Shown here: piece after piece, positions 2,788 to 38,059 of the stretch
Layout: every line of letters begins with the position of its first letter
Position numbering within the stretch: the stretch's first letter is position 1
Assembly: GCA_009746045.1 (NCBI GenBank)
Contig: RPFO01000103.1
Location: 2,085,857 to 2,149,856, forward strand
Source of the DNA: Mesostigma viride
Lineage: Eukaryota; Streptophyta; Mesostigmatophyceae; Mesostigmatales; Mesostigmataceae
Direction of reading: 5' to 3'
Length of the DNA stretch: 64,000 nucleotides
Notes under the pieces: generated by a model
Databases searched by the model: none
What the model saw: the letters and a program-made list of their open reading frames with translations, nothing else
What the model was told of the DNA's origin: nothing
Program-made: the position numbers and the translations under genes

Positions 2788-2894
2788 CTGGAGAGCTGGA
2801 GCGGCACGTCCCTGGCAGGCTTCCCTAGCAACTGCTTCGACGTGTTCATCGACGGCAGCAAGGGGCCGGCCAAAGGGCTGGGCGACCCTTTTGG
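2788..2894 (+). CDS. INTS6: INTS6 exon 1 of the window
   Basis: Acceptor TTGCCAG before 2788, donor GTGCGT at 2895, ending in phase 2. It encodes window residues 1-35 and two bases of codon 36. [22 protein letters not shown] here corresponds in my recollection to the CWQVYVSNS..LGHPFG stretch of animal INTS6. The start is an acceptor inferred from alignment; the true exon could begin a little further left. Confidence 0.8.
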
Positions 2895-5800
2895 GTGCGT
2901 TGTGTCCCCTTTACGTGAAAACTGTGTTATGTTCGATCATCTCAGCCCTGGGCGATTCGTGATCTGCACATTTTGATCATCACACCACGAGGCGATTGGG
3001 AGGCTTTGCTCGTTGGCTGGGTGATCCCGTTAGGCGCGTTAAGGCTGATTGATCTGCAAGCTGGGATCAATTTGAAAAGTAGTCAGGTGTCAAGGAATGT
3101 GGGACGCCAGTAGTGAAATAGTTTGGTACCATACCGGATTCGAACACAGGACCTCTTGCATGATTTCGCGGCTGTAGGGGTCTCCTGATCCGAAGGCATC
3201 CCAAGCGATAGCCCACTGCGAAAAAGCTCTTTGCCGGAGAGCGGTGCAGGTGCGTTCGAAATTCTCCAATACCAGTGCCAGTAGTGTTCGTTTGTCGGGT
3301 GACCCCTCTGGGTTGGCCGAGGTTTAACGTGGTTTTTATTGTTATGTGATTTCTTAATTTTTATTAATTTCACATTACCTGAAGTAAATGATGGTCTATT
3401 CAAGTCGAGCTGTATCACCTGGTGTTGATTGAGTCGAATAAGTATATACTACTACTACTGTATATACTACTATGTACACTGTATTGTGATTTCAATACAC
3501 TAGTAGAGTAGCAGGTAGTTAACCAGCCAATGGAGGGTTGCTCTTGTTGTCTTTCCTCTGGGGCATATATACTATTGTTTTCCTTATATGTACTACTTTT
3601 AGTATATGGTTATTGAGAATGATAAGTTACGGAAATAAGACCGGCATGCAACATAAGGAAACTGGCCATGTCAACTCTCTGGCCATGTCAAAGGGGAAGG
3701 ATCCTAAAGAAAAGAATCACCATGGCAGGCAAGGATCAAGCCAGCACTAGCGTGCAACTATACAACTACATGCAGCAACACCCCTGCCGACCCACCAGGC
3801 CGGGGAAGTGACCTACATGCACCGCCTGGGTCGCGACAAAGTCGGCCCGGACGCGGCGGACTAACACATCAGCCATCGTGCGAGTGAGGGTGAGGGACAG
3901 GCGCTGCCGCCAATACAAGGACCGTGTTTGAGCAGACCACGGGGCAGTCTGACCCTCGAGGTCAAGGCGGTCTTCCCGCTGCTGGCAGCACTCGTGAAAA
4001 AACTCCGCCGTCTTAGGTACTGGTATATATATATACATATACAACTATGTATTCATTGAGAATGATAAATTACGGAGGTGAGATTGGCATATATATACTT
4101 AGGTACTGGTATATATCTGGTGGGATGCAGGGCGTTGGGTGAGTGCGGTACCTGTGAATCCTTTGGATAAGGTTTCCAATGTTGTGATTAGATAATTACC
4201 TAGCTTGGGATATCGTCGACATCCCTCCCTGTCAGTCCCTCCCTATCAGTCCCTCCCTATCAGTGCCTCCCTATCAGGCTGGTGCTACAGGCTGCTGCCT
4301 CCGGCGTGTGTCTGCTGTGCTGCTGCGTCATACACACCGCCCGTGCCTGAGTAGCATGTAGGCAGCCAGCCACTGCAATTTCCTGCAATATTCTACTTGG
4401 TCTCATTGTGTGCTAGCATCACACTCATTGAAATGCTACTTGTATTCATGAAATGCTACTTGTATCTCTCATGGCTTCTTAGCCAGTTCATATTGCTTTG
4501 TGACGTTTTTGTTGGTTGGTAGGTTCTTACGTATAGTATACTAGGCCATCTTGGTAATTCTAGTAGGATGATTTTTGTTGCACGGAGGTCGACAAACTGC
4601 ACAATGTCATGGCATAACCCCTCTAATGGAGGTAGCGACTGCTATGTGGCACTCCGCCTGTTGCTGTCGTAATGGTGCTGGTGCTGTGTGCTTATGCCTT
4701 GACATGCGCAGGTTTATCAAGATGAAGACAGCACAGACGGCGACGCTGCACGTGCTGCCCTACAACTACCGGGTAAATCTGCAATGGCTGTTCTCTGTCT
4801 TTGAAAGGGCTACCTCATTTCTTTTCTGTCAACTGTTCTGTTCTGTCATGGTTTCTTGATGGTGTCGCCTCGCGTGGTCCCCCTGTGACATCTTCACACT
4901 ACTAGGCTTTGCGAGGGCAACCCCTTCTTTACCTAGTTCTAGCCTAAGTGAGGCGCTATGCAGCGGGCGCATTGGGGAGAGCCGGGGCGGGCAGGGGGGC
5001 TAGTCACGTGCATGGATGGATGTGGCTACATGCATTTCTAGGGTGCGCTAGCCAGACATGGCCTTGACGATGCGTAGAGAGATCCATGTACCCGTGTATG
5101 CCATGATCCATAGAGATCCATGCATGCCGTTATCTTATCCTTTGTGCACAGCTGTATGCCGTTATCTTATCCTTTGTCTGCCCTGTATGCCGTTATCTTA
5201 TCCTTTGTGCACAGCTGTATGCCGTTATCTTATCCTTTGTGCACAGCTGTATGCCGTTATCTTATCCTTTGTGCACAGCTGTATGCCGTTATCTTATCCT
5301 TTGTCTGCCCTGTATGCCGTTATCTTATCCTTTGTGCACAGCTGTATGCCGTTATCTTATCCTTTGTGCACAGCTGTATGCCGTTATCTTATCCTTTGTC
5401 TGCCGTGTATGCCGTTATCTTATCCTTTGTGCACAGCTGTATGCCGTTATCTCATCCTTTGTGCACAGCTGTATGCCGTTATCTCATCCTTTGTCTGCCG
5501 TGTATGCCGTTATCTTATCCTTTGTGCACAGCTGTATGCCGTTATCTTATCCTTTGTCTGCCGTGTATGCCGTTATCTTATCCTTTGTGCACAGCTGTAT
5601 GCCGTTATCTTATCCTTTGTGCACAGCTGTATGCCGTTATCTTATCCTTTGTGCACAGCTGTATGCCGTTATCTTATCCTTTGTCTGCCGTGTATGCCGT
5701 TATCTTATCCTTTGTGCACAGCCGTATGCCGTTATCTTATCCTTTGTGCACAGCTGTACGCCGTTATCTTATCCTTTGTGCACAGCTCTGTATGCCGTTA

Positions 5801-8800
5801 TCTTATCCTTTGTGCACAGCTCTGTATGCCGTTATCTTATCCTTTGTGCACAGCTGTATGCCGTTATCTTATCCTTTGTGCACAGCTGTATGCCGTTATC
5901 TTATCCTTTGTGCACAGCTGTATGCCGTTATCTTATCCTTTGTCTGCCCTGTATGCCGTTATCTTATCCTTTGTGCACAGCTGTATGCCGTTACCTTATC
6001 CTTTGTGCACAGCTGTACGCCGTTATCTTATCCTTTGTGCACAGCTGTACGCCGTTATCTTATCCTTTGTGCACAGCTGTATGCCGTTATCTTATCCTTT
6101 GTCTGCCCTGTATGCCGTTATCTTATCCTTTGTGCACAGCTGTGTGCCGTTATCTTATCCTTTGTGCACAGCTGTATGCCGTTATCTTATCCTTTGTGCA
6201 CAGCTGTATGCCGTTATCTTATCCTTTGTGCACAGCTGTATGCCGTTATCTTATCCTTTGTGCACAGCTGTATGCCGTTATCTTATCCTTTGTGCACAGC
6301 TGTATGCCGTTATCTTATCCTTTGTGCACAGCTGTATGCCGTTATCTTATCCTTTGTGCACAGCCCTGCCACCCTGTGTCTGCCCAACTCAACAACGCTC
6401 GCCTGTTCTGTACCTTGTCGTCGATACGTGTCTCGCACACGCTTCGTTGCATATTGTTTCCCCCAGCTTCCTCAAGCAGTTGCTTTGAGTGGGTATTTGG
6501 GGTGAGGGCTGATGGACGTACTCCATCGCAGGGGATACGGGATCTACCGGTCGGCATCAGCATGGGCATGTCGCCACAATCCCCACATATCCCTGGGAGG
6601 CAATTCAAGGCAGCCTTTGCTCCCTGTGTTACTCGACGGCCCCTCCATCCCCAAAGGACGAGGAGTTTGCTATCGATCTACCACACAGACCGCGTCATAT
6701 CCCGTTTGCCCTACAATATGCTCGTCCCTGGCGTCAGTTGAAATGACAGAGTTATTGTAGAACTGCATCCATGGACGTGACGAATCTATTACGATGCCTC
6801 CACGCTTCCTTCCCTGCTGCGCGGCAGCTATTCTGTTCTTCCCTCGACCGCTGGGCCAAGCTCCCGCCCAAGGTCAAGTCGATGCCACCCGCGGCGGTAT
6901 GGCAGGAGATGGAGCAGTACCTGCGGTAGGTGCCATAAATAGATCACGTACTAGCACCTAGCTACTGCATGTGTTTGGGGCAGTACCTGCGTTAGGTGCC
7001 ATAAATAGATCACGTACTCGTACCTAGCTACTGCATGTGTTTGGAGCAGTACCTGCGGTAGTTGCCATAAGTAGATCATGTACTAGTACCTAGCTACTGC
7101 ATGTGTTTGGGGCAGTACCTGCGTTAGGTGCCATAAATAGATCACGTACTCGTACCTAGCTACTGCATGTGTTTGGAGCAGTACCTGCGGTAGTTGCCAT
7201 AAGTAGATCATGTACTAGTACCTAGCTACTGCATATGGCAGGAGATGGAGCAGTATCTGCGGTAGTTAATATAATTATTGAAGTGAAGCGACATATATGG
7301 TTACCTGGGGTAGGAAGCTTGCTTACCTTGGATGATTATGATTGTTGTATGTGGCAGGAGATGGGGCAGTACCTGCGGTAGGTGGCCTATACTTCTTAGT
7401 ACGCGCTTACATCAAGTAGATAGCAAATACAGTTACTGCATGCGGCAGGAGATGTAGATGAAGACCTGCGGTAGGTACCTCGACTTGACGGTTCCGCAGA
7501 AGGGGTGGTACGATGTCACATTGACGGATTTTTCATGCTCAGTGGCGAGGATTATCTCTGTTGAAATTATAGTGAAAATTAGTAATATAGATAATATTAA
7601 TGATAGTAATAATAATAGTAATTGCTGCTATCGGTGTTGGTGGGCAACTGGGCATGCCAGGTGGATGTGGCCCAGTGTCTTGGAACACTTTCCAAAAACC
7701 CTAAGGAATGTGTGGCAACCTGAGGTGGTATCAAGTGCTTTCTACTGTCGCCTGCTACGAGTATGCCACCGTGGTATATAAAGCCAGTTATTGGTATGTA
7801 TATTTAATCCTAGAAATGGAGCTAGTTATTTTTTTTTTCTATGCTCCAACTGTTTGCATTAACGAATACTGTGCTCAGTGCGGTATGCCACCTAGACACG
7901 CGTCGTGTGCTTGCAAATGCTGATATTGATCATTACTTGTAACGAATGGACAGACCAAGTGTCAGGCATGGATCATACTGGCTTGATTGAAAGGGCGCCC
8001 TTCTGCCCTGCCTCCCCCCCATCCGCCCTTGCACCGTTCCCACCCCCCCATCTGCACTTGCACCGATCCCACCCCCCCATCCGCCCTTGAACCGTTCCCA
8101 CCCCCCCATCCACCCTCCGGTTTCCCCCCATGGTGGGAATGGCATCATTAGGTGGTGATACTCCTGATGTGCTATCACCAAACTAGTACTAGTGACTATC
8201 ATATCATGTGGTGGGGATACTCCTAATGCCCCACCACCAAAATAGTACTAGTGTGACTTCACGCCTATGCCATCTCTGACTGACTGTCTGGCTTGTTATT
8301 CATCAATGGTCGGTACATCACTGTCGAGGTTATTAATCAATGGTCCGTAGATCAATGCCGAGGTTATCAATCAAGGGTCAGTAGATCAGGTCAAGGTGAC
8401 TTATTGAGAGATCAGAAAGTTGACCTTGCGTCTGGGATGCGGTTTGGGAGACCGTTTGCCTGATTGGTGTTCACCTGATCGACACTGATTAGCACAACAA
8501 GCGTTCTGTTTATTGATGATTCCGTTGATGATTGCATTGCCTCTTTGTCGGTTGCATGGCCGGCGTCCCCCCAGCGGCGTGCCCCGATACTACCTGCCCC
8601 CCCTGGCCCGCTTCCTGCACACCCTGGGCACGCCCTTCTTCCGTGTGGTTGACGCGCTGGACAACCCAATGCAGCCGTCTGTCACCGCCCATCTGGCCGA
8701 CGCGCGCATGCGCTCCGCCGAGTGGGTGGAGATGATGCGGGTGGGTGGCAGTCAATGGTGGTGATGATGATAGTAATAATAATAACAATAAGAATAATAG

Positions 8801-11545
8801 CAATAAGAATAATAACAACAATAATAGCAATAAGAAAAATGCACTCCGAGTGGGCAGAGATGCAGGTGATCGGCAATAAATAGAATAGAGAAGATAGCAA
8901 TAGTAGAAATAATTAATCGTAGCAATATGCGCCGAGTTGAAGGATGTGATGCGGGTGGGTGGCGATAAACAACTGCAATAAAATGTACGCGCCGAGTGGG
9001 TGGAGGTCATGCGCGTGGGTGGCAATATGCAGTGAGTGGGTAAGGTTATTGCTGGTGGGTAGCGGCGGCAATCGGGGGCGGGGGCATGCAGGTGGGTAGC
9101 AGGGCTGGCGCCATCCCCAGGCTGCTGCCCTGGCTGACTTCACGCCGCCATTCTCCCGGAAGGGTCACACTTGCCAGGGGTCAGTTGAGGCATTATTGAG
9201 GTGAAGGGGTAGGGTTCGTGAGCCCTATGTGTGGCTAGGGGTAGGGTTTGTTCGTCCTATGTGTGGCTTGGGTTTCGGGCCTAGTGCTGCCATCATCGCC
9301 CTTTGGTAACAGGTTGCCCAACAGGATATCCAGCAGCTTACCCAGGGTGCCTTTGTGGGTGCACGTTTGTGGTGATGGCGCAGGCTACTAAGCCCACCCT
9401 CAAAAGAGCACGCAGCATAATGTCCTTGGGGATATGAACGGACAATGGACAAGATTAGGAGGCAAATGGGAATCGGTTAGAGAGGAACAGCCTGCGCCCT
9501 TATTTTGGAAAGGTCACTTTTATGGCAGTCACATGTGTCGATTCAGCCCAGGGGCTGACTGTGGGCTGAATGAGCCCGCATGATCGCCAGCTCAACATCT
9601 TCTATGTATTGTGCGATGCACTACTGGATGGTACAAAGCAGTGCTATCTGTCAGCTAGCTTGGTCACATATAGGGCTGCCGTAGCACGCTTGGTCTCAGA
9701 TAGGGCTGCCGTAGCACGCTCGGTCGCAGATAGGTCGCACGAAGCACCTTCCTGCCTGACATGTCCTGATGCATGGTCACATATACGAGACCATATCCCA
9801 TACATGACCATATCCCGTACAAGGCCACATCCTAGTAGCATACAAGACCATACCCTCTGCAAGGCCGTACCCTCTGCAAGGCCGTACCCTTTGCAAGGCC
9901 ATACCCTATGCAAGGCCGTACCCTATGCAAGGCCATACCCTATGCAAGGCCATACCGTCTATAAATCAACCGTCTCCCTTATTTGTTCCACCTTCTCCTT
10001 CCACCACCTTCCCTGAGACACACTCGCGCGTGCTTCCTTGTGCGTTGGACGCCACCACCGGGGAACCACGATCTGAAAAAGTCGACGGTGCGTGTCAGCT
10101 GACAGCGTAGCTCTGCCATCGCCATTTCTCTCTGCCACGCAACCACCATGCCACGCAACCACCATGCCACTTGTCAACCAAACAGGCGTTCCTGGAGGAA
10201 GGCGTCCTACCCACCACAGGACCCACCACCCACCCAGGGCCAAGCTCCAAACCGGACCTCCAACTCACCCAGTCTTGGCCCTCGCTGTCCCTCCCCCCTC
10301 AGGCCCCGCAGGCCCCCCTGGCCACTATGGGGTCAGGGGTCACCCCTGAGGGCAGTCGGGTTGGCCCAGGGGCCAGGGCACATCATGGTCCCTTCTTGCC
10401 TGGCGCCGCCACTCTCGCCGCGGAAAGTGATGCCACTGCCAAGCCTGCTGCCCTCTCGGCCACTGGCACGGCGCCAGGTGGCGGCGGCGCGGCTACGGAG
10501 CCAATCGGATGCGAGGACATGTCTTTCCGGAAGTTCCTTCGCAGGAGCGCGGGGGGTCGAGCAGGGGCGAGGGACAAGGCGGGGGTGGGGGCAGGGGCCG
10601 CCCTCCCCAATGTGGACACGTTCCCGATCTTCACAAGCCGAGCCTCCTGGGGGGCGCACCCATGCACCTGGGCTGCCCCTGTGGATATACAGGGGGCTGG
10701 GGCAGCGGCCTTGTCAGGTGCGGATGCGTGGAGGGAGGGCGATGGATCCGAGTCTGGCCTTGGCACGGCTGCTGCTGCTGCTGCCATCCCGGCAGGCACA
10801 GCTGCCTTGAGTCTCCCCGCCTGGGCCTGTGGGTATGGGGACACGGAACCTCCCCCGCCTCCCCTTCCTCCCCCGACTCCTCTCGCAACCCCCTTTTCTC
10901 TCCCTCATCGTGCTGGCGATACCACGGCCGCCGCGCAAGGCATCCCCTCGCAGCCCTTCAGTAAGGATGCTGTCAAACGCCACGATATGCCCCCAGGTAG
11001 CGCCACCCTGGATGGCTTCCCTGTGCCAGCACATGGGGCCTCCGATGCTTTCACCGGTGGGGCCTCTGGTGGTTTCACGTTTGGTACGTTCGAAGGGGTC
11101 ACCGGAGGGCTGGCCCGTCCAGGGGTTCCCCCACCCGGTGCAGCCGCTGAGATACCCCTTGATCTGCCGATGCATGCGGAGATTGCCACCGCACCCTCTA
11201 TGGGAAATGCACAAGGGGCCGTGGCGCTGCCACCTGGCGCTGCACCCGGACAGCTGCCACCTGTCAACATTGCAGTGACGTTGCCAGGGGAACGTTTGGA
11301 GGGGCAGGCTGAGGATCCTTGCGTTGCCGGCAGGGAGCGGGTCCTGGGCGTGGACGCGGGCGGCCAGGGAGGGCCCACGGGGGCCGTGCCAGGGGCCCAG
11401 GTGGCGCGTTTCCCAGCTACGGATGCGTGGCTGGGTGCACGACCCAACCCGAGTATGGCATCAGCGTTGATGACATCATCACCATCAGCGTTGATGACAT
11501 CATCTGCATCGCCATCAAGGACGTCCTCGTTGGCATTATCATCAT

Positions 11546-11589
<44 letters not shown>

Positions 11590-14500
11590 CACCACACCCC
11601 TGCGCTCCTATCTGCCAGGTCCCTGGTGGACGCGGCGGCGGCATCAGAGCGACCCCACGGCGTTGCCCTTCTTTCAACCGTCGCGCTGCCATCGTCACCA
11701 TCCCCGCCGCCCGCACCGGGCGTGCCGGTGGCCAATTCTCTTCGCCGGATTGTCGGCACGGGAATCGGTGGGCGAGGGGTGGGGTCAGGGGCGGGCGGCG
11801 GTGCCACTGCTCCAGGACCGGCTGTGTTTCGGAATGTGTTTGATGTCTCCAGGGAGGACCTGCTGCGGTACGCGATGGTGGATTTGTAATCAGGCTCGAC
11901 GAGAGGATAAATAGCACATTAACTAGCAGCCCATATGATGTCTCCCAGGAGGACCTGCTGGGGCAGGTGGCTAATTGATTAACATATTTGGAAAGAGGTT
12001 CAATAACGGGTTAGGTAATATCCTTTCTATTCGATGTCTCATGGAGGAGCTGATGCGGTAGGTGGTGGAATGATTTTAAGATCAGAAACCTCAATAAAGT
12101 TCTCCTCGGTAGTGCTTCCGTAGATGTTGAACAACTTTTTAGATCACCAGTCGTTGTGTTTGGCGTGCTTGAGAAGAACCTGCTGCAATACTGGGATAAT
12201 TGTAGTAATAGATCATGTTATAGGTTCTCCTCGGTTGGTTTTGTTTACGCACCCACATTGTTGTGCCCGCATCATGCCATCACCCACATCATGTCATCAC
12301 CCACATCATGCCATCAACCACATCATGCCATCACCCACATCATGCCATCACCCACATCATGCCATCACCCACATCATGCCATCACCCACATCATGCCATC
12401 ACCCGCATCATGCCATCACCCACATCATGCCATCACCCACATCATGCCATCACCCACATCATGCCATCACCTACATCATGCCATCACCCACATCATGCCA
12501 TCACCCACATCATGCCATCACCCACATCATGCCATCACCCACATCATGCCATCACCCACATCATGCCATCACCCACATCATGCCATCACCCACATCATGC
12601 CATCACCCACATCATGCCATCACCCACATCATGCCATCACCCACATCATGCCATCACCCACATCATGCCATCACCCACATCATGCCATCACCCACATCAT
12701 GCCATCACCCACATCATGCCATCACCCACATCATGTCATCACCCACATCATGCCATCACCCACATCATGCCATCACCCACATCATGCCATCACCCACATC
12801 ATGCCATCACCCACATCATGCCATCACCCACATCATGCCATCACCCACATCATGCCATCACCCACATCATGCCATCACCCACATCATGCCATCACCCACA
12901 TCATGCCATCACCCACATCATGCCATCACCCACATCATGCCATCACCCACATCATGCCATCACCCACATCATGCCATCACCCACATCATGCCATCACCCA
13001 CATCATGCCATCACCCACATCATGTCATCACCCACATCATGCCATCACCCACATCATGCCATCACCCACATCATGCCATCAACCACATCATGCCATCACC
13101 CACATCATGCCATCACCCACATCATGCCATCACCCACATCATGCCATCACCCACATCATGCCATCACCCACATCATGCCATCACCCACATCATGCCATCA
13201 CCCACATCATGCCATCACCCACATCATGCCATCACCCACATCATGCCATCACCCACATCATGCCATCACCCACATCATGCCATCACCCACATCATGCCAT
13301 CACCCACATCATGCCATCACCCACATCATGCCATCACCCACATCATGTCATCACCCACATCATGCCATCACCCACATCATGCCATCACCCACATCATGCC
13401 ATCAACCACATCATGCCATCACCCACATCATGCCATCACCCACATCATGCCATCACCCACATCATGCCATCACCCACATCATGCCATCACCCACATCATG
13501 CCATCACCCACATCATGCCATCACCTACATCATGCCATCACCCACATCATGCCATCACCCACATCATGCCATCACCCACATCATGCCATCACCCACATCA
13601 TGCCATCACCCACATCATGCCATCACCCACATCATGCCATCACCCACATCATGCCATCACCCACATCATGTCATCAACCACATCATGCCATCACCCACAT
13701 CATGCCATCACCCACATCATGCCATCAACCACATCATGCCATCACCCACATCATGTCATCACCCACATCATGCCATCACCCACATCATGCCATCACCCAC
13801 ATCATGCCATCACCTACATCATGCCATCACCCACATCATGCCATCACCCACATCATGTCATCAACCACATCATGCCATCACCCACATCATGCCATCACCC
13901 ACATCATGCCATCACCCACATCATGCCATCACCCACATCATGCCATCACCCACATCATGCCATCACCCACATCATGCCATCACCCACATCATGCCATCAC
14001 CCACATCATGTCATCACCCACATCATGCCATCACCCACATCATGCCATCACCCACATCATGCCATCACCCACATCATGCCATCACCCACATCATGCCATC
14101 ACCCGCATCATGCCATCAACCACATCATGCCATCACCCACATCATGCCATCACCCGCATCATGCCATCACCCACATCATGCCATCAACCACATCATGCCA
14201 TCACCCACATCATGTCATCACCCACATCATGCCATCACCCACATCATGCCATCACCCACATCATGCCATCACCCACATCATGCCATCACCTACATCATGC
14301 CATCACCCACATCATGCCATCACCCACATCATGTCATCACCCACATCATGCCATCACCCACATCATGCCATCACCCACATCGTGCCATCACCCACATCAT
14401 GCCATCACCCACATCATGCCATCACCCACATCATGCCATCACCCACATCATGTCATCACCCACATCATGCCATCACCCACATCATGCCATCACCCACATC

Positions 14501-17500: not shown

Positions 17501-20500
17501 ACCCACATCATGCCATCACCCACATCATGCCATCACCCACATCATGCCATCACCCACATCATGCCATCACCCACATCATGCCATCACCCACATCATGCCA
17601 TCACCCACATCATGCCATCACCCACATCATGCCATCACCCACATCATGCCATCACCCACATCATGCCATCACCCGCATCATGCCATCACCCACATCATGC
17701 CATCACCCGCATCATACCTTCAACCACATTATCTCCCTCCAATTCCAAGCCTGTGTCCTCCATCTCTTCTATTGTCAAGCTTCCTCTACACCGAAGGTTT
17801 TGAACCCTAATTTAATCTTACGCCAAACCTCTTTCCTGGACCCTTTCGCTCCCTGGGCCCCGCAGGCAGGTGGACATATTCAGGCTCCGCCTGCATGACA
17901 CCCTGCAGCAGCTGCAAGCAGAAAGCGCGCCTTCAGTCCCCGCGGATGTGGGCGCGCCACCATCCGGCACCGCCTTGCTGGCGCACACACATGGCCTTGA
18001 GCCCAGGCGCAAGCTCAAGCGCTCTCCCTCCTTCTCGGCCAAGGGCATCGGAATCGGACGGGACTTGGAGCAAATTGAGGACGCGGAGCACTCAGTTCCC
18101 ATCAGCCAGGTAAGGGGGGGGGGGGGGAATCACTCTTAGCCCATCAGCCAGGGTAGGGGGGGGATATGATCACTCTTAGCCCATCAGCCAGGTAAGGGGA
18201 AGGGGATCACTTGGTTTTCATGAGCCAGGTAAGGGGGGGGGCAATGGGTGCCCATCATCCTGGTGGGAGGGAGGGAGGACAGGTTGGGGGGTTGCCACAG
18301 CTGTGCAAGGTGCTGTAAAGGAAAACTTGGAATGTGACAACTTCATTCAAGAGTGCTTGCTGTGGCTAGGGAGGCCAGTATGGGCAAGCGGGGGGGAGAG
18401 AGGGGCCAGCTCCATTCATGTCAGCGCGGGGGAAGGACAGATGCCAGCATGTCGGTGATTTTGGTAGCCTTGCCTGCAAATACATCGGATACCCACATGG
18501 GGGTTCAATGACCATGGACTAGGACTGCAGCCCACATGAGGGGTAAAGAACCATCTACTAGGCTAGCCGCCCACACCTCGCTACAACAGCCATTAACTAG
18601 GGTAGCCGCCCACACCTCGCTACAACAGCCATTAACTAGGGTGGCCGCCCACACCTCGCTACAACAGCCATTGACTAGGGTAGCCGCCCACACCTCGCTA
18701 CAACAGCCATTGACTAGGGTAGCCGCCCACACCTCGCTACAACAGCCATTGACTAGGGTAGCCGCCCACACCTCGCTACAACAGCCATTAACTAGGGTAG
18801 CCGCCCACACCTCGCTACAACAGCCATTAACTAGGGTAGCCGCCCACACCTCGCTACAACAGCCATTGACTAGGGTAGCCGCCCACACCTCGCTACAACA
18901 GCCATTGACTAGGCTAGCCGCCCACACCTCGCTACAACAGCCATTGACTAGGGTAGCCGCCCACACCTCGCTACAACAGCCATTGACTAGGGTAGCCGCC
19001 CACACCTCGCTACAACAGCCATTGACTAGGGTAGCCGCCCACACCTCGCTACAACAGCCATTGACTAGGGTAGCCGCCCACACCTCGCTACAACAGCCAT
19101 TGACTAGGGTAGCCGCCCACACCTCGCTACAACAGCCATTGACTAGGGTAGCCGCCCACACCTCGCTACAACAGCCATTGACTAGGGTAGCCGCCCACGC
19201 CTCGCTACAACAGCCATTGACTAGGCTAGCCGCCCACGCCTCGCTACAACAGCCATTGACTAGGGTAGCCGCCCACACCTCGCTACAACAGCCATTGACT
19301 AGGGTAGCCGCCCACACCTCGCTACAACAGCCATTGACTAGGGTAGCCGCCCACACCTCGCTACAACAGCCATTGACTAGGGTAGCCGCCCACACCTCGC
19401 TACAACAGCCATTGACTAGGGTAGCCGCCCACACCTCGCTACAACAGCCATTGACTAGGGTAGCCGCCCACACCTCGCTACAACAGCCATTAACTAGGGT
19501 AGCCGCCCACACCTCGCTACAACAGCCATTGACTAGGCTAGCCGCCCACACCTCGCTACAACAGCCATTGACTAGGGTGGCCGCCCACACCTCGCTACAA
19601 CAGCCATTGACTAGGCTAGCCGCCCACACCTCGCTACAACAGCCATTGACTAGGCTAGCCGCCCACACCTCGCTACAACAGCCATTGACTAGGGTAGCCG
19701 CCCACACCTCGCTACAACAGCCATTGACTAGGGTAGCCGCCCACACCTCGCTACAACAGCCATTGACTAGGGTAGCCGCCCACACCTCGCTACAACAGCC
19801 ATTGACTAGGGTAGCCGCCCACACCTCGCTACAACAGCCATTGACTAGGGTAGCCGCCCACGCCTCGCTACAACAGCCATTGACTAGGCTAGCCGCCCAC
19901 GCCTCGCTACAACAGCCATTGACTAGGGTAGCCGCCCACACCTCGCTACAACAGCCATTGACTAGGCTAGCCGCCCACACCTCGCTACAACAGCCGTTGA
20001 CTAGGCTAGCCGCCCACACCTCGCTACAACAGCCATTGACTAGGGTAGCCGCCCACACCTCGCTACAACAGTTATTGACTAGGGTAGCCGCCCACACCTC
20101 GCTACAACAGCCGTTTACTAGGCTAGCCGCCCACACCTCGCTACAACAGCCATTGACTAGGGTAGCCGCCCACACCTCGCTACAACAGTTATTGACTAGG
20201 GTAGCCGCCCACACCTCGCTACAACAGCCATTGACTAGGGTAGCCGCCCACACCTCGCTACAACAGCCATTGACTAGGGTAGCCGCCCACACCTCGCTAC
20301 AACAGTTATTGACTAGGGTAGCCGCCCACACCTCGCTACAACAGCCGTTGACTAGGCTAGCCGCCCACACCTCGCTTCAACAGCCATTGACTAGGGTAGC
20401 CGCCCACACCTCGCTACAACAGCCATTGACTAGGGTAGCCGCCCACACCTCGCTACAACAGCCATTGACTAGGGTAGCCGCCCACACCTCGCTACAACAG

Positions 20501-23500
20501 CCATTGACTAGGGTAGCCGCCCACACCTCGCTACAACAGTTATTGACTAGGGTAGCCGCCCACACCTCGCTACAACAGCCATTGACTAGGCTAGCCGCCC
20601 ACACCTCGCTACAATAGCCGTTGACTAGGGTAGCCGCCCACACCTCGCTACAATAGCCGTTGACTAAGGTAGCCGCCCACACCTCGCTACAACAGCCATT
20701 GACTAGGGTAGCCGCCCACACCTCGCTACAACAGCCATTGACTAGGGTAGCCGCCCACACCTCGCTACAACAGCCATTGACTAGGGTGGCCGCCCACACC
20801 TCGCTACAACAGCCATTGACTAGGGTGGCCGACTGCACTTCGCTGAAATGGCCATCTACTGGGTCAGCCATCTGCACTCCTCGCTCCATGTTCTTCCTCG
20901 TGCGTTCCTCGAGGGGTGGTCCTTCATCCTTCCCGCGGCCTCGACTGCCTCCCACCGACGGGCAACGACTTTCCTAAAGTGGATCCACATAATCCATAAA
21001 AATATTTTTCTTGGCGAAATTCTCTTTTTATAAATTATTTACTAAAAAGTTTTGATTTTTTTTCTTAGCTTTTCCTTTTCTTATGGAATCTAAAAGAAAG
21101 CATTAGAAAACTATTTTTATGGCACACAAAAGAAGATATCATGATGTAGAACGATTATTCCTGGCAGAATGGGGGTCACCGGGAGGCCATCGGCGAGGAT
21201 CGCTGTCCATGTTCATCAGAACTCCTCGTTCGCCGATGCTTGGTGCTTGATTCTTCGTCCTTCCCGTGGCCTCGCCGCTCACAGATGGGCGACTACCAGG
21301 AGGCCATGATGCGGCAGCAGGCGCTCCGGGACCCCAGGGTACGCACCCTTAGTGGTTGCGGATATCCATCGTCAGGGTATCTGAAGTTGTCAGGTTAAAT
21401 AAATATTAGTATGGAATCCTGGACGTGAAGTAGCCAGGGTGCCATGTAACGTAATGTCTCTGTGCTTTTTGCTCGTTTCTCCTTCTTCCTGTATTGCTCC
21501 TCTACTTGGCTGCCTGTTCACCCCCACAACAATCTTTTGGCTTCTGTCGTTTGGCGTTATTTTGCGTGTCCAGTATGTTCGGTTCAAATCGCTTGTTGCC
21601 TTTCTCGATGCGCCACCTTCCCTCCTGTACAACATCTCAGGCTATCCCGCTGCCCCTGAGCCACCCCTTTGCACCTCATATGCCCTCCTCATTTCCCCCT
21701 CACTTCCCTCTCTTCCGCCGTGCCCCCTGCTTCCACCACACCTGCACAACCTTGTTTCCTTGGTTCGGTTGCGATTACTCCTCCTCCCCATCGCCCCACG
21801 ACGCCCCGTGCACGCCTCTAAACCGCCCTGCATTACTGCAACGCATGGCCTTCCCTTGGCCCTGATGAACCATATGTATGCACCATGATGAACCATCTAT
21901 GTACGAATGCACCCCCGCGGTGCTGGCCCTGCCTCCCTCTATCCACCTCGCTCAGGCATCCTGTTGTCCTGTCCTGAAGCATTTGTTTAGGCATCCAACC
22001 CACCCAGATAGCAGGGTCTGACGGCACCGAAGCGGCTCCCCGTGGCGCCATCACGCGATCTAATCTTGTTAGTTTTAAATTCAACCCGCCCATGAATTAA
22101 TTCATTAATAATCACGTAGACTGCGTCACGTGGGTACCAATATGGATCCTTCAACCCCTATTCGCAATGAGAAGGAGGGAGGGCACCCTGGCTTCTCGCG
22201 CTGCCCTAATTAAGTGGGCAGGCCACAGAGCACTTTCTCCGCATCATGCCCAGTGCGGCCGCAACTGTGGGTGCAATAACGCTTCGTAGCTTCATAGCAA
22301 AAGCGTGGCAAATGCAGTAGCGATGCCCCGTGGTCCAGAGCCCACAGACAGATAGGCTTGGAACGCATTTAGAGGTGCTGGATTGGGAGAATATAAAGGC
22401 CTCTCCCGGAGAAACCCGCCCATACTCCCTGTTAAGTGCCCTTTGAATATATCTAAAGCATTCAACGCGCCTGTGCACTCTGTTGCCTGTCTTTCATTTA
22501 AACTTCCTTTGAATTATCTAAAGTATCCGACCTGCCCATGCACCCTCTTACCTTGTCCTTCCATTATACTGTTGTATCCTGCATCCATCGTGTTCCAAGC
22601 AGGCCGAGGACGAGGAGCCGATGGCGCGTCTGCGCGCGCAGCTGTCCAGCCGGCTCCGCTCCGCACAAGACGCCGCCACCAACGCCACCACCAACGCCGC
22701 CACCAATGCCGCCACCAACGCCGCCACCAACGCCGCTGCTAACGCCGCCAACAACACCAGCAAGCTGTCGCCCATCACCACCCCCACGGTCGATGAAGCC
22801 GGCGACGCGGAAGGCCAGCCCCCTCGCTCCCCTAGGCCCCGCAAGCGCCGCTCCCCGCTTCTCTCGCCCGCCTCCAACCCCACCGCCAACGAGCCGGCAC
22901 CAAACGTTGGGCCCCAGCCGCCCATTCCTCGGCGGTCGGTGCCCCTGTCCCCTGGCAAGGTCGCTTCCTCGTCCTCTGGTGGTGTCGGCCCGGGCAGGAC
23001 GCCGCGCGCTGGCACCGGCCCTCACTTGGTGATGACCGATGCCCCCCCGCACGCGATTGATGAGGCGGATGGGCGCCCCTTGGGGGTTGCATCCAAGGAG
23101 GCCTCCCTGCCGATGTCCTCTGGGCATGGGCAAGATCCAGGGGGGACGCAGCCGCGGGAGGCAAACGTGGGAGGTGTCCCATTCTCTAGGGAGGGGGAGG
23201 GAGCGGCGGCGCGGCAACACGGGCGGGGCCGGATGGGCGTGCAGCCAGGGCAGGATCCGCTGAGGTCATCGATTGGGGACCTGCTGACATCATCGCTGGC
23301 TTGGGCCGTCGCAGGAGCGCGCGACGATGTCAGCGACGCCGGGGACTTTCGCTCGGACGACCTCAGCGATGCGTCTCTGGCGGGTGGCTGCATGGACGTG
23401 GACGCGTCGCCCTTTCCGTTCGCTGATGCTGAGCTGGCAGCGGGTGATGGCTTTGGCAGCAGCAAGGGAGATGGGTTACTGGACAGCCTGCTTCCGCGTG

Positions 23501-26287
23501 CAGTCTCCGTAACGGATGTCCTTGGTGGGTCGCGACGTAACGGAGGTGCCACGGGGGTGCCTACGTCGGGTGCTTTAGGGAACACTGCCCACGGCGGACC
23601 GATTCCTCACCCTGACAGGGGGCATCCTCCCGGTGGCCGTCCGCCGCCGCTGCAGTACCGTGAGCTAGGCGCTGTGGTCATGGGCGCCGACACGTACGAG
23701 CGCAACAGGTGGCGGGGGGAGGGCGGGGCGCACAGTGACCTGTCGCATAGTGACCTGTTCCTGCGCGGTCCTGGTCTCGGCGGCGCGTCGCCAGATGCCC
23801 TGGGAGGAGCTGGGGCAGGGGGGCAAGCCATGCATTTGGGTGAAGTTCAATCTTGGCCAGACAGCGCCCGCGGGAGAGACATGGATGCAGGAGGCGGGAC
23901 GGCGAGGGATGGGGGAAGGGAAAAGGAGGTGCGTTGGAGAAGAGTGCCGGCCGAGTGGGGCGTCCCACTTGGCGGGGCGGCAGGGCAAGCTGCGGAAGGG
24001 ATGGGCCGGGCTCGACAGGCACCGCCCAGGGACCCTGTGGCCTCCGGGAGGGACACAAATGACTTGTACATGAGAGGTTCCATGGACAAGGGCATGGAGC
24101 ACGGGGGTGGGGGGCGGCGTGACGTCGCCCGGGGTAATCTCTCCTGGGCGCTCGTGCGTGCGGTGGCGGAGGGCCAGGGGTGTACCGGTGGCGCCCTCAC
24201 GCCGCTGGGGGCTGAGTTCCTGTGTGGGCTCATCGGATATGTGCGGGAGAGCCGGGGGGGGGAGTGCGCACAGGTGAGCGCTACGCTTCTCTGCTCTCGT
24301 GTTCAGAACTAAGGTGTGTGTGTGTGTGTGTGTGTGTGTTTGTCATCCACATGTTGATGGCCAGGTGAGCATCTCTTTGTCCACTAGTGATCATTATGGT
24401 CAAGTGTGATTGTGTGCGTGTGTGTGTATTTTATGTACATTCGTGGCCAGGTGAGCCGGTTCCTCAATTGCTGACGACAAAAGGTGTGCTGTGTTCATCA
24501 AAATGCTTTGTTTGCTCTCTATCAAACTCTATCAAACTCTATCAAACTGCTTCTCCGCTGCATCCAAATGCTTTGTTTGTCGGTCCCAGCAGGGGATGAT
24601 CCGCCAAGTGAGCGCGTGTCTCTGTTGTTGTGGGCGACGGGGTAGCTGTCGTTTGTGGCTTTGTGTCTCGAGCATTGTGTGGGCCGCGGCCACGCCATCT
24701 TGCGCGCAGGTGAAGGGGTCGTCGTGGCATCGACAGGGCTGTGCCTGTGTCGCGGCCATCCAGTCGATTGGTAGTGGTGATCTACTCTGTCGGTAGTGGG
24801 CAGGCCATTTCATGGCACAGGTGAGCCGTTTTTTGTACTGCTACCCGCCAACCAGGGTCTCAGTCTTCATGCTCCAGTGCTTTTCACATGATGCCAACAT
24901 AAGCATGTATACTATCATGGTTCAACGGTAAGATAATATCATGGAGAGGGAAGGAGCCGTTCGCTAGGCTGCGGTAGAGAACTGCTGGTTGCTGATTGGT
25001 CATTGCTGATTGGTGATGCTCGACACTTGGCGAGAGTCAGCAGGCAGCGGCGCGGCACGCCCATGCTGCGCTCCCTAGCAACATCCGTTGTGGCCTTTGC
25101 AAGTTTTTTTTTCCTGCTGCCACCGCGACTACCACCACCATGGTGCTGATGTTATTCTTACCAGACACCCGTGTTTAGAGTATAGCTGTAGAGATTTCGA
25201 TTGGGTAGGTTGTTGCTTATCGCAGCTTGTTTTCATCGGTGATGCCTTTCTGGTTTTTGTGTTATACATCGTTCTGAATGGTTAAACATACGGTGCATGC
25301 CCGTGAATGATTATACATTCTGGACTCTCACGTGACAAGTGCCAGTATTCGAGATACGGTTTGCGCATTTGCTTGCTTGCTGACATCTGTGTTTGTTCCC
25401 GCTGACCAACCACCATGCTGCGCAGCTGCTGTCACTTTTGGAGCTTCCAAACTTCCCGACGGAAAAAACCCGGTTCGTCCGCGACCTCATCAAGCAGGTG
25501 AGAGGAGCCAGGGATAGGGATAACAGGGATAACAGGGGTAACAGGGGTAACAGGGGTAACAGGGGTAACAGGGGTAACAGAGGTAACAGGGATAATAGGG
25601 GTGATAGGGATGACAGGTATAATAGGGGTAATAGGGATAACTGGGATAGTAGAGATCAAAGGCCAGTATGTTCGTTCGTTGGCGTGTTTATCGGCAATCA
25701 TCACCACCACCACGGCCGCCGCCGCCACCACCACCACCACCACCACCACCACCACCACCACCACCACCACCACCACCACCACCACCACCACCACCACCAC
25801 CACCGCCGCCGCCGCCGCCGCCGCCGCTGCCGCCACCGCCACCACCATCATCAGTCATCTGCTTTTGTCACAACCGATTTTACAAGGACGTTTTTGTGGC
25901 ATTAGCGCTGTGCTCCAGCTACACTCTTGTATGCTCGTAGATCTGTATAACACAATACTCACTTTGATATAGCAAAATTGGGTTATACATCTGCGCAACA
26001 TTTATAATTTACTATTTGCTGCCTACCTCTTCGATATATATGTTAATGCTACATCAAGCATGTGTCCTTTGGTTATATGTGAGCTAGAACAAGAGAGCAG
26101 CAAATAGGTCCTGCTCAAGCAGCCCAGACCGGGCAACCTAACCATTCCCACGGGCCCCGTACTCCATTTTTCATACGTTCATATTCCATGTCTCCAGGCA
26201 CGTCGGCATAACAAGACGATCTTGGGAGCCAAACTGAGTGGCTACTTGGCGACGCTGATGCCTCGTATTGTGCAACAGAAAGCTTGA
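2788..26287 (+). CDS. INTS6: Integrator complex subunit 6 (10 exons, 5' end outside window)
   Basis: INTS6 belongs to the nuclear Integrator complex, which cleaves nascent snRNAs and other short transcripts; INTS6 helps attach the PP2A phosphatase module. Joining 2788-2894, 4712-4772, 6828-6925, 8575-8740, 10186-11867, 17866-18109, 21285-21338, 22603-24273, 25426-25497 and 26198-26287 gives one open frame of 1414 residues plus stop, with every intron GT..AG and all phases consistent. Landmarks resembling animal INTS6, in the same order: GDPFG followed by [39 protein letters not shown] joined to MGDYQE, and a C-terminal helical segment ([16 protein letters not shown]) matching the INTS6/SAGE1/DDX26B C-terminal domain. 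Exons 5 and 8 carry long low-complexity insertions (about 560 and 557 residues) absent from the 887-residue human protein; parts could be intronic. The N-terminal VWA domain is upstream of the window. Identity rests on recalled family motifs, not a search. Confidence 0.9.
2895..3060 (+). repeat. Exon-edge echo after INTS6 exon 1
   Basis: The exon 1 end plus donor (GGCTGGGCGACCCTTTTGGG then TGCGTT) recurs in decayed form at 3015-3040 (GGCTGGGTGATCCCGTTAGG then CGCGTT) and more weakly at 2946-2960 (CCTGGGCGATTCGTG). See the finding on exon-edge echoes. Confidence 0.5.
3133..3222 (-). other. tRNA-Arg-like / SINE-head-like sequence
   Basis: Read on the - strand it contains a box-A-like GCAGTGGGCTATCGC, a segment GCCTTCGGATCAGGAGACC resembling a TCG anticodon arm, and a near-consensus box B (TGTTCGAATCC). 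A convincing acceptor stem and T stem are missing and the spacing is too long, so it is not a functional tRNA. A degenerate tRNA-derived SINE head in an INTS6 intron is the likeliest reading. Confidence 0.3.
3766..4044 (-). pseudogene. LINE ORF2 C-terminal fragment
   Basis: The conceptual product contains [33 protein letters not shown] and VRRVRADF. It is clearly homologous to the longer copy at 54962-55471 ([31 protein letters not shown]). This is the type of tail found at the end of non-LTR retrotransposon ORF2. It lies in the INTS6 intron between exons 1 and 2, antisense to the gene, and is truncated at both ends. Confidence 0.6.
4215..4285. repeat. 15-bp tandem repeat, 4 copies
   Basis: CCCTCCCTATCAGT units in the INTS6 exon 1-2 intron, with small variants (TGTCAGT, TATCAGG). 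Confidence 0.8.
4712..4772 (+). CDS. INTS6: INTS6 exon 2
   Basis: Acceptor ATGCGCAG, donor GTAAAT at 4773. It completes the split Gly codon and adds 20 residues, [20 protein letters not shown]. The join DPFG-FIKM and the LPYNY motif are the best landmarks for INTS6 in this window. Confidence 0.9.
5122..6363. repeat. 31/32-bp minisatellite, about 39 copies
   Basis: The unit starts GTATGCCGTTATCTTATCC and ends either GTGCACAGCT (32-bp form) or GTCTGCCCT/GTCTGCCGT (31-bp form); the two forms alternate irregularly. No stop occurs in any + frame, so three overlapping 460-500-codon open frames exist that are artefacts. The array fills most of the INTS6 intron between exons 2 and 3 (4773-6827). Confidence 0.96.
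6828..6925 (+). CDS. INTS6: INTS6 exon 3
   Basis: Acceptor GCGCGGCAG before 6828; donor GTAGGT at 6926; ends in phase 2. It encodes 32 residues ending VWQEMEQYL. The spacing between the LPYNY motif of exon 2 and the RYYLPPL motif of exon 4 matches animal INTS6, in which a Trp-containing helix (KWRQSFESYL in my recollection) lies here. Confidence 0.8.
6911..7475 (+). repeat. Exon-edge echo array at INTS6 exon 3 donor
   Basis: Five 66-bp tandem units begin inside the exon: each starts GGAGCAGTACCTGCGGTAGG or a variant, that is, the last 15 bases of exon 3 plus its donor. Three longer copies follow near 7235, 7350 and 7440, which also include the preceding GGCAGGAGATG. Donor state varies: GTAGGT (original, and the copies near 7376 and 7468), TTAGGT (two 66-bp copies) and GTAGTT (other copies). 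Several copies are therefore plausible competing 5' splice sites. Confidence 0.85.
8005..8118. repeat. About 27-bp tandem repeat, 4 copies
   Basis: CCCCCCATCCGCCCTTGCAC units with variants, inside the INTS6 exon 3-4 intron. Confidence 0.8.
8148..8400. repeat. Two short tandem duplications
   Basis: 8148-8262 holds two imperfect copies of about 57 bp (GGTGATACTCCTGATG.. and GGGGATACTCCTAATG.., each ending AGTACTAGTG). 8305-8390 holds three imperfect copies of about 36 bp around GAGGTTATCAATCAAGGGTC. Both are intronic. Confidence 0.7.
8575..8740 (+). CDS. INTS6: INTS6 exon 4
   Basis: Acceptor GTCCCCCCAG, donor GTGGGT at 8741, phase 0 at the end. It completes codon CG|C and gives 55 residues beginning [20 protein letters not shown], which parallels the animal INTS6 stretch around YYLPPLKKAVRMMGAPN. 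The remainder ([19 protein letters not shown]) would correspond to the following helices. Confidence 0.9.
8741..9112 (+). repeat. Exon-edge echo array at INTS6 exon 4 donor
   Basis: The exon end GCCGAGTGGGTGGAGATGAT, then GCGG|GTGGGTGGC, returns in decayed form near 8846 (CCGAGTGGGCAGAGATGCAG), 8930 (GCCGAGTTGAAGGATGTGAT then GCGGGTGGGTGGC), 8990 (GCCGAGTGGGTGGAGGTCAT then GCGCGTGGGTGGC) and 9030 (GTGAGTGGGTAAGGTTATTG). Copies at 8930 and 8990 keep a GTGGGT donor. An AAT/AAC-rich microsatellite lies at 8766-8835. Confidence 0.8.
9790..9965. repeat. About 18-bp tandem repeat, 8-9 copies
   Basis: CAAGGCCATACCCTATG and variants (CCGTACCCTCTG), in the INTS6 exon 4-5 intron. A weak alternative exon candidate (GCTGCTGCCCTGGCTGAC, 9112 onward, after CCCCAG) lies to its left but has no good donor. 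Confidence 0.8.
10186..11867 (+). CDS. INTS6: INTS6 exon 5 (long, low-complexity)
   Basis: Acceptor ACCAAACAG, donor GTACGC at 11868; starts in phase 0 and ends in phase 2. It encodes 560 residues, rich in Ala, Gly, Pro and Ser, with a Ser run followed by an Ala run encoded by ATC/AGC trinucleotide repeats near 11536-11590 and a 24-bp duplication (GCGTTGATGACATCATC) near 11465-11510. The last residues [14 protein letters not shown] match the animal TFRNAYDIPRRNLL motif, fixing the frame. Only about 90 residues separate the corresponding motifs in human INTS6, so most of this exon is either a lineage-specific disordered insertion or partly intronic sequence that happens to be open. Confidence 0.75.
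11868..12200 (+). repeat. Exon-edge echoes at INTS6 exon 5 donor
   Basis: The exon end GATGTCTCCAGGGAGGACCT then GCTGCG|GTACGC is echoed at 11938 (GATGTCTCCCAGGAGGACCT then GCTGGGGCAGGTGG), at 12031 (GATGTCTCATGGAGGAGCTG then ATGCG|GTAGGTGG) and weakly near 12158-12190 (GTGCTTGAGAAGAACCTGCTG). The second copy has a donor at least as good as the one assigned. Confidence 0.8.
12271..17715. repeat. 17-bp minisatellite, about 320 copies (5.4 kb)
   Basis: The unit is CATCATGCCATCACCCA. Variants are single substitutions (TGTCATC, CAACCAC, CCCGCAT, CCTACAT). No + frame contains a stop, so three >1800-codon open frames run through it; these are artefacts of unit composition. The array makes up about 91% of the INTS6 intron between exons 5 and 6 (11868-17865). 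Confidence 0.97.
17866..18109 (+). CDS. INTS6: INTS6 exon 6
   Basis: Acceptor GGCCCCGCAG; donor GTAAGG at 18110. It begins in phase 2 (CG|G) so that ..DLLR continues as [16 protein letters not shown]. It ends HSVPISQ, which matches the HSVPIAQ that precedes MGNYQEY in animal INTS6. The alternative acceptor four bases later (GCAGGCAG) would shift frame and lose the motif. 81 residues. Confidence 0.9.
18110..18250 (+). repeat. Exon-edge echoes at INTS6 exon 6 donor
   Basis: The junction CCCATCAGCCAG|GTAAGGGGG is repeated at 18139 (GCCCATCAGCCAGGGTAGGG), 18180 (GCCCATCAGCCAGGTAAGGG) and 18218 (CATGAGCCAGGTAAGGGGGG). Two of the three copies keep a perfect CAG|GTAAGG donor. Poly-G runs follow each donor. 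Confidence 0.85.
18556..20835. repeat. 39-bp minisatellite, about 58 copies
   Basis: The unit begins CCATTGACTAGGGTAGCCGC and ends CACACCTCGCTACAACAG. It is open on both strands over most of its length because 39 is a multiple of three. There are no unique spacers, so it is not a CRISPR array. It fills most of the INTS6 intron between exons 6 and 7 (18110-21284). Confidence 0.97.
21285..21338 (+). CDS. INTS6: INTS6 exon 7 (54 bp)
   Basis: Acceptor CGCTCACAG, donor GTACGC at 21339, phase 0 at both ends, 18 residues: [24 protein letters not shown] joined to the preceding HSVPISQ reproduces the animal HSVPIAQMGNYQEY motif. Too short to be noticed as an isolated open frame. Confidence 0.9.
22108..22480 (-). 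mobile_element. LINE 3'-end fragment (family with CACGTGACGCAGTCACGTG tail)
   Basis: On the - strand the fragment ends in GTACCCACGTGACGCAGTC followed by an ATTA-rich tail (22085-22110). The stretch around GTGGGCAGGCCACAGAGC and GAGAAGGAGGGAGGGC is shared with 54765-55460. It lies in the INTS6 intron between exons 7 and 8, antisense to the gene. Confidence 0.55.
22603..24273 (+). CDS. INTS6: INTS6 exon 8 (long, low-complexity)
   Basis: Acceptor TTCCAAGCAG, donor GTGAGC at 24274, phase 0 at both ends, 557 residues. It starts [18 protein letters not shown], then a 12-bp tandem repeat encodes Asn/Ala/Thr units (22678-22750), followed by a long Gly/Pro/Arg/Ala-rich, probably disordered stretch. 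The end ([25 protein letters not shown], 24138-24261) looks like the first helices of the INTS6-type C-terminal domain, which continues in exons 9 and 10. Confidence 0.8.
24274..24840 (+). repeat. Repeated donor-like sites downstream of INTS6 exon 8
   Basis: CAGGTGAGC-type sites recur after the true donor (GCACAG|GTGAGC): at 24361 (GGCCAGGTGAGCATC), 24447 (GGCCAGGTGAGCCGG), 24605 (GCCAAGTGAGCGCG), 24707 (GCGCAGGTGAAGG) and 24816 (GGCACAGGTGAGCCG). A GT microsatellite lies at 24313-24340. Confidence 0.65.
25426..25497 (+). CDS. INTS6: INTS6 exon 9
   Basis: Acceptor TGCTGCGCAG, donor GTGAGA at 25498, phase 0 at both ends, 24 residues ending [10 protein letters not shown]. This corresponds to the TRLIFLQNVIKEASRF region of the animal C-terminal domain. 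Confidence 0.85.
25510..25645. repeat. 9-bp repeat (AGGGGTAAC)
   Basis: About 14 imperfect copies of AGGGGTAAC / AGGGATAAC directly after the exon 9 donor in the last INTS6 intron. Confidence 0.85.
25699..25852. repeat. CAC/CCG trinucleotide microsatellite
   Basis: About 27 CAC units flanked by GCC units. It lies wholly within the last INTS6 intron (25498-26197), so the His, Pro, Thr or Val homopolymer frames it creates are not protein. Confidence 0.95.
26198..26287 (+). CDS. INTS6: INTS6 terminal exon 10
   Basis: Acceptor TGTCTCCAG, stop TGA at 26285-26287, 29 residues starting [20 protein letters not shown]. Joined to exon 9 it gives [17 protein letters not shown], parallel to animal INTS6 IKEASRFKKRMLIEQL, and so completes the C-terminal domain. 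No clear polyadenylation signal is seen in the next 500 bases. Confidence 0.85.
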   Translation, partial: ARRHNKTILGAKLSGYLATLMPRIVQQKA

Positions 26288-38010: not shown

Positions 38011-38059
38011 GAACTTCGTACTAGTGTGCTCTGTGACTCCCCTACGGGAGCGCGTGTTT

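Follow-up and report, generated by a model that had tools for sequence, protein, structure and literature searches.

The window, a stretch of 64,000 nucleotides of Mesostigma viride DNA (contig RPFO01000103.1), carries on its plus strand a series of exons of an INTS6-like gene. The joined peptides of exons 1–4 match PDB 7cun_F (Integrator complex subunit 6) with an E value of 1.3e-6, and they match the INTS6 beta-barrel family of Pfam (PF25462) at 28.4 bits, barely over the cut-off of 27. Exon borders were placed by reading frame, phase and splice sites, and are predictions from the sequence alone. One of the minus-strand genes of the window contains a SWIB domain (PF02201, Pfam). Its exons lie within 41323–48690 and include, by eye, a DEK-C-like exon (48394–48690) and a second SWIB-like exon (41323–41655). 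Two reverse transcriptase (PF00078) reading-frame pieces on the minus strand at 36914–38020 resemble part of a non-LTR retrotransposon, and positions 60500–61700 are occupied by about 1.2 kb of a GGGAGGGA-type purine repeat that is strand-biased and open in several frames. The exons and the repeats associated with their edges are collected in Table 1.

Table 1. Predicted exons, exon-edge copies and arrays in the window.
Feature	Position	Strand	Remarks
15-bp minisatellite	1..2196	+	146 copies in the window; by pattern the array runs from window -2606 to 2179
INTS6 exon 1 (first in window)	2788..2894	+	weak echoes 3015-3040 (20/26), 3297-3313 (14/17)
INTS6 exon 2	4712..4772	+	without echo
INTS6 exon 3	6750..6925	+	
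66-bp tandem array	6910..7234	+	starts within exon 3, spans exon 3 donor
Three more exon 3 edge copies	7234..7475	+	7234-7274, 7352-7389, ~7444-7475; spacers dissimilar
INTS6 exon 4	8575..8740	+	
Exon 4 edge copies	8839..9102	+	8839-8880, 8930-8963, 8990-9024; weaker ~9034, ~9086
INTS6 exon 5	10186..11867	+	
Exon 5 edge copies	11936..12197	+	11936-11963, 12030-12069, 12155-12197
INTS6 exon 6	17866..18109	+	
~40-bp exon 6 edge array	18131..18275	+	copies 18131-18163, 18168-18197, 18198-18241, 18248-18275
INTS6 exon 8	22603..24273	+	intron: only CAGGTGAGC; GT at 24365, 24451, 24608 (1 mismatch), 24821
36-bp array	40851..41204	-	downstream of SWIB-type exon end 41323, like its edge; nearest echo 41251-41222; later copy 40848-40801
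SWIB exon edge echo (24/31)	46290..46320	-	exon's donor starts 46421
3' side echoes of exon start at 59389	59453..59605	-	59478-59453, 59605-59580; carry pyrimidine tract and CAG

An earlier note on this DNA had described copies of the exon end and its donor, here called echoes, in the introns behind INTS6 exons 1, 3, 4, 5, 6 and 8. Each exon edge (−45 to +15) was compared with the 1 kb of intron that follows it, and the best local score was judged against dinucleotide shuffles. Scores of 64, 58, 46 and 56 were obtained for introns 3, 4, 5 and 6 respectively (z 11–15), whereas none of these edges scored above 32 in any other intron of the set. The description therefore stands firmly for exons 3 to 6. 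The echo of exon 1 is weak (score 28, p 0.02), and the comparison of edge and own next 1 kb revealed no significant echo in introns 2, 8 and 9. What recurs after exon 8 is the 9-base donor CAGGTGAGC, found three times exactly and once nearly in +10 to +600 (0.10 in shuffles), without exon sequence. The repeat strings that had been quoted could all be located: GCAGTACCTGCGGTAGG occurs without mismatch at 6914 and again at 7366, with near copies in the interval, CTGATGCGGTAGG lies at 12050, and CATCAGCCAGGTAAGGG lies at 18100 and 18182. Most of INTS6 intron 5 consists of a 17-bp minisatellite with 321 copies at 98% matches (12266–17729), where exon-edge likeness was examined to +600. A 9-bp array of AGGGGTAAC (25516–25645) begins 19 bases past the exon 9 donor and has GTAAC motifs, with no exon-edge match.

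When a 40-base query was moved across each of 13 donors, eight from INTS6 and five from minus-strand genes, z exceeded 4 in none of them at −200 to −80, in one at −60, in five at −40 and in six at −20. A minus-strand case is the SWIB-type exon ending at 41323: its echo lies 71 bases inside the intron, and a 36-bp array similar to the exon edge comes next. The search was extended to 50 kb on each side of the window, with exons called by a codon model and donors by a small weight matrix. Among the predicted donors of window and flanks 13/50 showed an echo at z > 4, four inside the window and nine outside, although model and matrix had been trained partly on window exons and some of the codon-model segments are surely false. 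With better-supported exons only, the figure is 10/23. Mid-exon controls gave 1/50 and, for the better-supported exons, 0/23. The new cases in the flanks include further INTS6 exons as well as genes which, by eye, we take to be eIF3a-like, metal transporter-like and acyl-CoA synthetase-like.

To go beyond this locus, exons of two protein families were sampled from the whole 440-Mb genome. Kinesin profiles gave 129 matches, from which 30 and then 40 loci were drawn; of 58 chaperonin matches 20 loci were taken. The 40 kinesin and 20 chaperonin loci were picked roughly by rank, leaving out matches ending at the profile end and duplicate contigs. The first 30 kinesin loci yielded 18 donors and 27 acceptors for testing, the next 40 yielded 36 donors and 39 acceptors, and a joint run over all 70 comprised 55 donors. 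Echoes were present at 8/18 kinesin donors in the first sample, at 12/36 in the second, with mid-exon controls at 0/18 and 0/36, and at 21/55 in the joint run. For chaperonin donors the count was 7/20, with 0/20 at mid-exon, which brings the mid-exon controls of both families to 0/74. Kinesin edges gave 0/55 against shuffled introns and 1/55 against the intron of another exon.

These counts contain some dependence. Five of the 40 loci of the second sample (L080–L084) belong to one gene whose self-repeats had already been seen, and without them that sample stands at 9/31. L045 and L048 share one array, L030 and L036 lie on one stretch, and some paralogues are not independent of each other. Weak positives are included, namely L040 (z 4.0), L036 (two separate pieces) and the acceptor of L037 (poly-C). 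Contigs C622 and C2 (L043, L044), considered as possible alleles, are 99.97% identical over 6034 bases and are an assembly duplicate. It might be thought that the pattern stems from chance matches, mistaken exon calls or errors of assembly, as donors were predicted by a small weight matrix and false segments occur among those of the codon model. We regard this as very improbable in view of the shuffled and foreign introns, of the many contigs on which protein families defined the exons, and of the divergence of most copies, which is unlike that of assembly duplicates. Exon-edge echoes are thus real and common across the sampled genes of this genome. The comparison with chance that the earlier note had called for, made here on samples, leaves its pattern in place, while the idea that the pattern is peculiar to INTS6 has to be given up.

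The echoes are also found at the other end of introns. In the INTS6 edge set the acceptors numbered 4 (p 0.010) and 2 (p 0.033) were nominally significant as well. Kinesin acceptors with an echo amounted to 6/27 in the first sample and 6/39 in the second, a total of 12/66 when a hit with either of two queries was counted. At one kinesin exon (L038) the pyrimidine tract, CAG and start of the exon recur three times upstream. A rule confined to 5' ends, which the INTS6 edge scores had suggested, was dropped once these 3' echoes appeared. Donors nonetheless echo more often than acceptors in kinesins (20/54 vs 12/66, p 0.024). This may be because a spare acceptor sits upstream of the real acceptor and, if used, would lengthen the mRNA, whereas a spare donor sits downstream of a donor that works. 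With locus L027 read as its reverse complement, the kinesin intron has at about +215 to +290 past the donor what appears by eye to be a decayed copy of the start of the following exon (VELYNEF-like reading).

The frequency of echoes has to be seen against the background of local copies in intron interiors. Control positions were set several per intron, in kinesins 60 to 240 bases past the donor, and some of them may be echoes themselves. In kinesin introns a local copy was found at 67/384 interior positions vs 21/55 edges (p 0.0009), and in chaperonin introns at 15/60 interior positions vs 7/20 edges; pooled, the values are 28/75 for edges vs 82/444 for interiors, a ratio of 2.0. At z > 8 the kinesin edge excess (11/55 vs 10.7%) was not significant (p 0.07). 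Around the window the contrast is larger, with 10/23 edges vs 4.5% of 1056 repeat-unmasked noncoding positions. Among all 1500 random noncoding positions there, 26.5% have a copy, a figure that differs from the 4.5% because the repeat-unmasked filter drops recognised arrays. The strong junction hot spot to which 10/23 vs 4.5% had pointed is weakened, since matched intron interiors give only an approximately two-fold difference. Two decaying copies diverge twice as fast as one copy compared with a frozen exon, and it can be reasoned that a uniform process therefore predicts just such a two-fold edge excess.

Our preferred reading, to which we assign a probability of roughly 0.7, is uniform local tandem duplication combined with a frozen exon copy. 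Local tandem duplications, with units of very roughly 40–150 bp, would be frequent throughout the introns of the genome. Selection would purge duplications lying inside exons; those straddling a junction would be tolerated, since they keep one exon edge and its splice site intact, and would leave a spare copy in the intron. As the exon copy would be frozen by coding constraint and the intronic copy would decay neutrally, junction copies should remain recognisable for about double the time of intron-only copies. Some arrays would be homogenised or expanded into minisatellites, and introns would grow partly from their ends. At the DNA level slippage or staggered-break fill-in would be responsible; small tandem duplications arising from break repair were reportedly described by Vaughn and Bennetzen in 2014. 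The first, exon-proximal donor is presumably the one used. The echoes most likely arise as a harmless side effect of local duplication, which is frequent and lengthens introns, and not as a working array of rival splice sites.

Several results count against uniform duplication, and most of them bear on an alternative in which splice junctions are duplication hot spots (e.g. through nicks or R-loops) with filler between the copies. The exonic part of the echoes is short, with a median start at −28 and 36/42 alignments (several per intron) between −14 and −44; this is unpredicted by random units, while a clustering near 28 bases would suit a hot spot. If whole units decayed evenly, the spacers between copies should mostly be more similar than they are: significant homology was found in 2/13 comparisons, whereas in most of them the exon parts match at 19/28 to 28/28. 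To that extent, even decay of complete tandem units mostly disagrees with the data. Dissimilar spacers between well-preserved exon parts are what the hot spot leads one to expect; they could represent repair filler, later inserts, or exchange limited to the exon part with partial homogenisation. The donor excess over acceptors, the strong contrast around the window and the p of 0.07 at z > 8 likewise tell against uniform duplication, and the contrast with repeat-unmasked sequence and the kinesin excess of edges over interiors speak for the hot spot. We consider the hot spot unlikely, because a two-fold excess is the prediction of one frozen copy and because the interiors are themselves rich in local copies.

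Returning to uniform duplication with a frozen exon copy, the changes accumulated in the echoes look neutral. When each exon was compared with its best echo in 22 introns, codon positions 1, 2 and 3 differed in 20/191, 24/194 and 38/191 cases (p 0.008). An even 10–12% with an excess at mostly silent sites fits an echo that drifts freely and an exon that drifts only silently. Coding selection on the echoes was rejected, as positions 1 and 2 change evenly and most indels are of one base. The GT is retained in 28/34 copies aligned at the donor, 26 of the 28 lying beyond an in-frame stop, a count biased toward identity in that the aligned copies are the best or good alignments from introns chosen for having an echo. 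At about 11% divergence per site the neutral expectation is about 79% (0.89 squared = 0.79), and the echo donors are not kept above it.

The earlier note had proposed arrays of competing 5' splice sites, and a version in which selection keeps the echoes as decoy or alternative 5' splice sites, e.g. for U1 binding or stop-containing isoforms, was considered. It could explain the strong donor-like sites at +10 to +600 of 13 introns, of which 10 were sense and none antisense vs 2.5 in shuffles (the row for intron 5 is void, its donor having been placed two bases early). It could likewise explain the retention of the donor motif only in INTS6 intron 8, the better preservation of exon parts than of spacers, and the paralogous kinesin loci L027 and L030, which have an echo region in common (score 51 vs 25.4 in shuffles, sd 3.9) in introns that otherwise differ. 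A sense-strand excess is, however, expected from duplication itself, the loss of GT in 6/34 copies is near neutral, codon positions 1 and 2 change evenly, and acceptors echo too. The proposal thus finds no support in these data, and we hold selected decoys to be quite improbable.

As the earlier note had it, these introns do carry duplications made across the exon border, and such copies can give rise to long arrays. Complete head-to-tail tandem units are seen in INTS6 introns 3 and 6 and in L045 and L048. Similar units joined head-to-tail, as in a minisatellite, characterise introns 3 and 6 and the 15-bp and 36-bp arrays, the other echoes having unlike spacers. Upstream of the window, the edge echo of an INTS6 exon runs directly into the 15-bp minisatellite of the first 2.2 kb. 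Two echoes, each a single case, appear to have seeded minisatellites: this one, and the 36-bp array after the SWIB-type exon.

The paralogous kinesin genes L045 and L048 have in common a 70-bp array composed of the exon edge and two echoes. Within each gene the units compared are nearly identical, spacers included, with the exon matching its own echo at 38/39 and 36/39; between the genes the spacer matches at 25/31 and echo to echo at 33/39. The two exons differ silently (TCC/TCT), and their echoes carry the same difference. The simplest reading of this one pair is that the array would be older than the paralogues and was later homogenised within each gene, exon included, although independent duplication at the same spot is possible. 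This would extend uniform duplication to exon-anchored arrays evolving in concert, in which the exon rewrites intron copies and these return silent changes, and in which junctions seed minisatellites and intron length genome-wide. The evidence for such concert comes from two paralogue pairs, L045/L048 and L027/L030, and we put the idea forward tentatively, doubting it somewhat more than we believe it.

Intron growth is usually ascribed to transposons, and in introner-type elements a repeated sequence enlarges or makes introns genome-wide. The echoes resemble introners in that repeated sequence lengthens introns, but each echo matches its own exon and there is no shared element: foreign introns gave 1/55 and INTS6 edges scored low in them, so that one element common to many introns was not found. 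What is found are direct tandem repeats with exon sequence and splice site. Tandem duplication across an intron–exon boundary is described, in the part of the report on a potato RdRp gene consulted here (PMC4974935), as a route to intron gain in single genes; the same part cites the Rogers model and the ATP2A1 and fission yeast cases. As in potato, a direct repeat over the splice junction enlarges intronic sequence and adds splice signals. In that part the potato case concerns a new intron in one gene, whereas here existing introns lengthen, at more than one third of the sampled donors.

In human segmental duplications, according to the sections of PMC2812944 at hand, internal tandem repeats alter genes, and minisatellite units averaging about 30 bp lie at exon–intron boundaries, as they do here. 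Those sections treat recent primate duplicates only and not a general intron feature, unlike the present case. Fill-in at staggered breaks makes tandem duplications below 100 bp (excerpts of PMC8355091) and is a plausible source of the echoes, although the excerpts give no link to splice junctions. Word searches of open-licence papers returned no description of exon-edge echoes as a genome-wide trait or at such prevalence.

As far as the evidence goes, the mechanism is ordinary and its extent unusual. At more than one third of the sampled donors the exon edge has copies whose age can be roughly estimated. One can thus trace, intron by intron, how introns lengthen, what becomes of spare splice sites and a possible exchange between coding and intronic sequence, and gene finders applied to such a genome should be expected to meet many near-perfect false donors.
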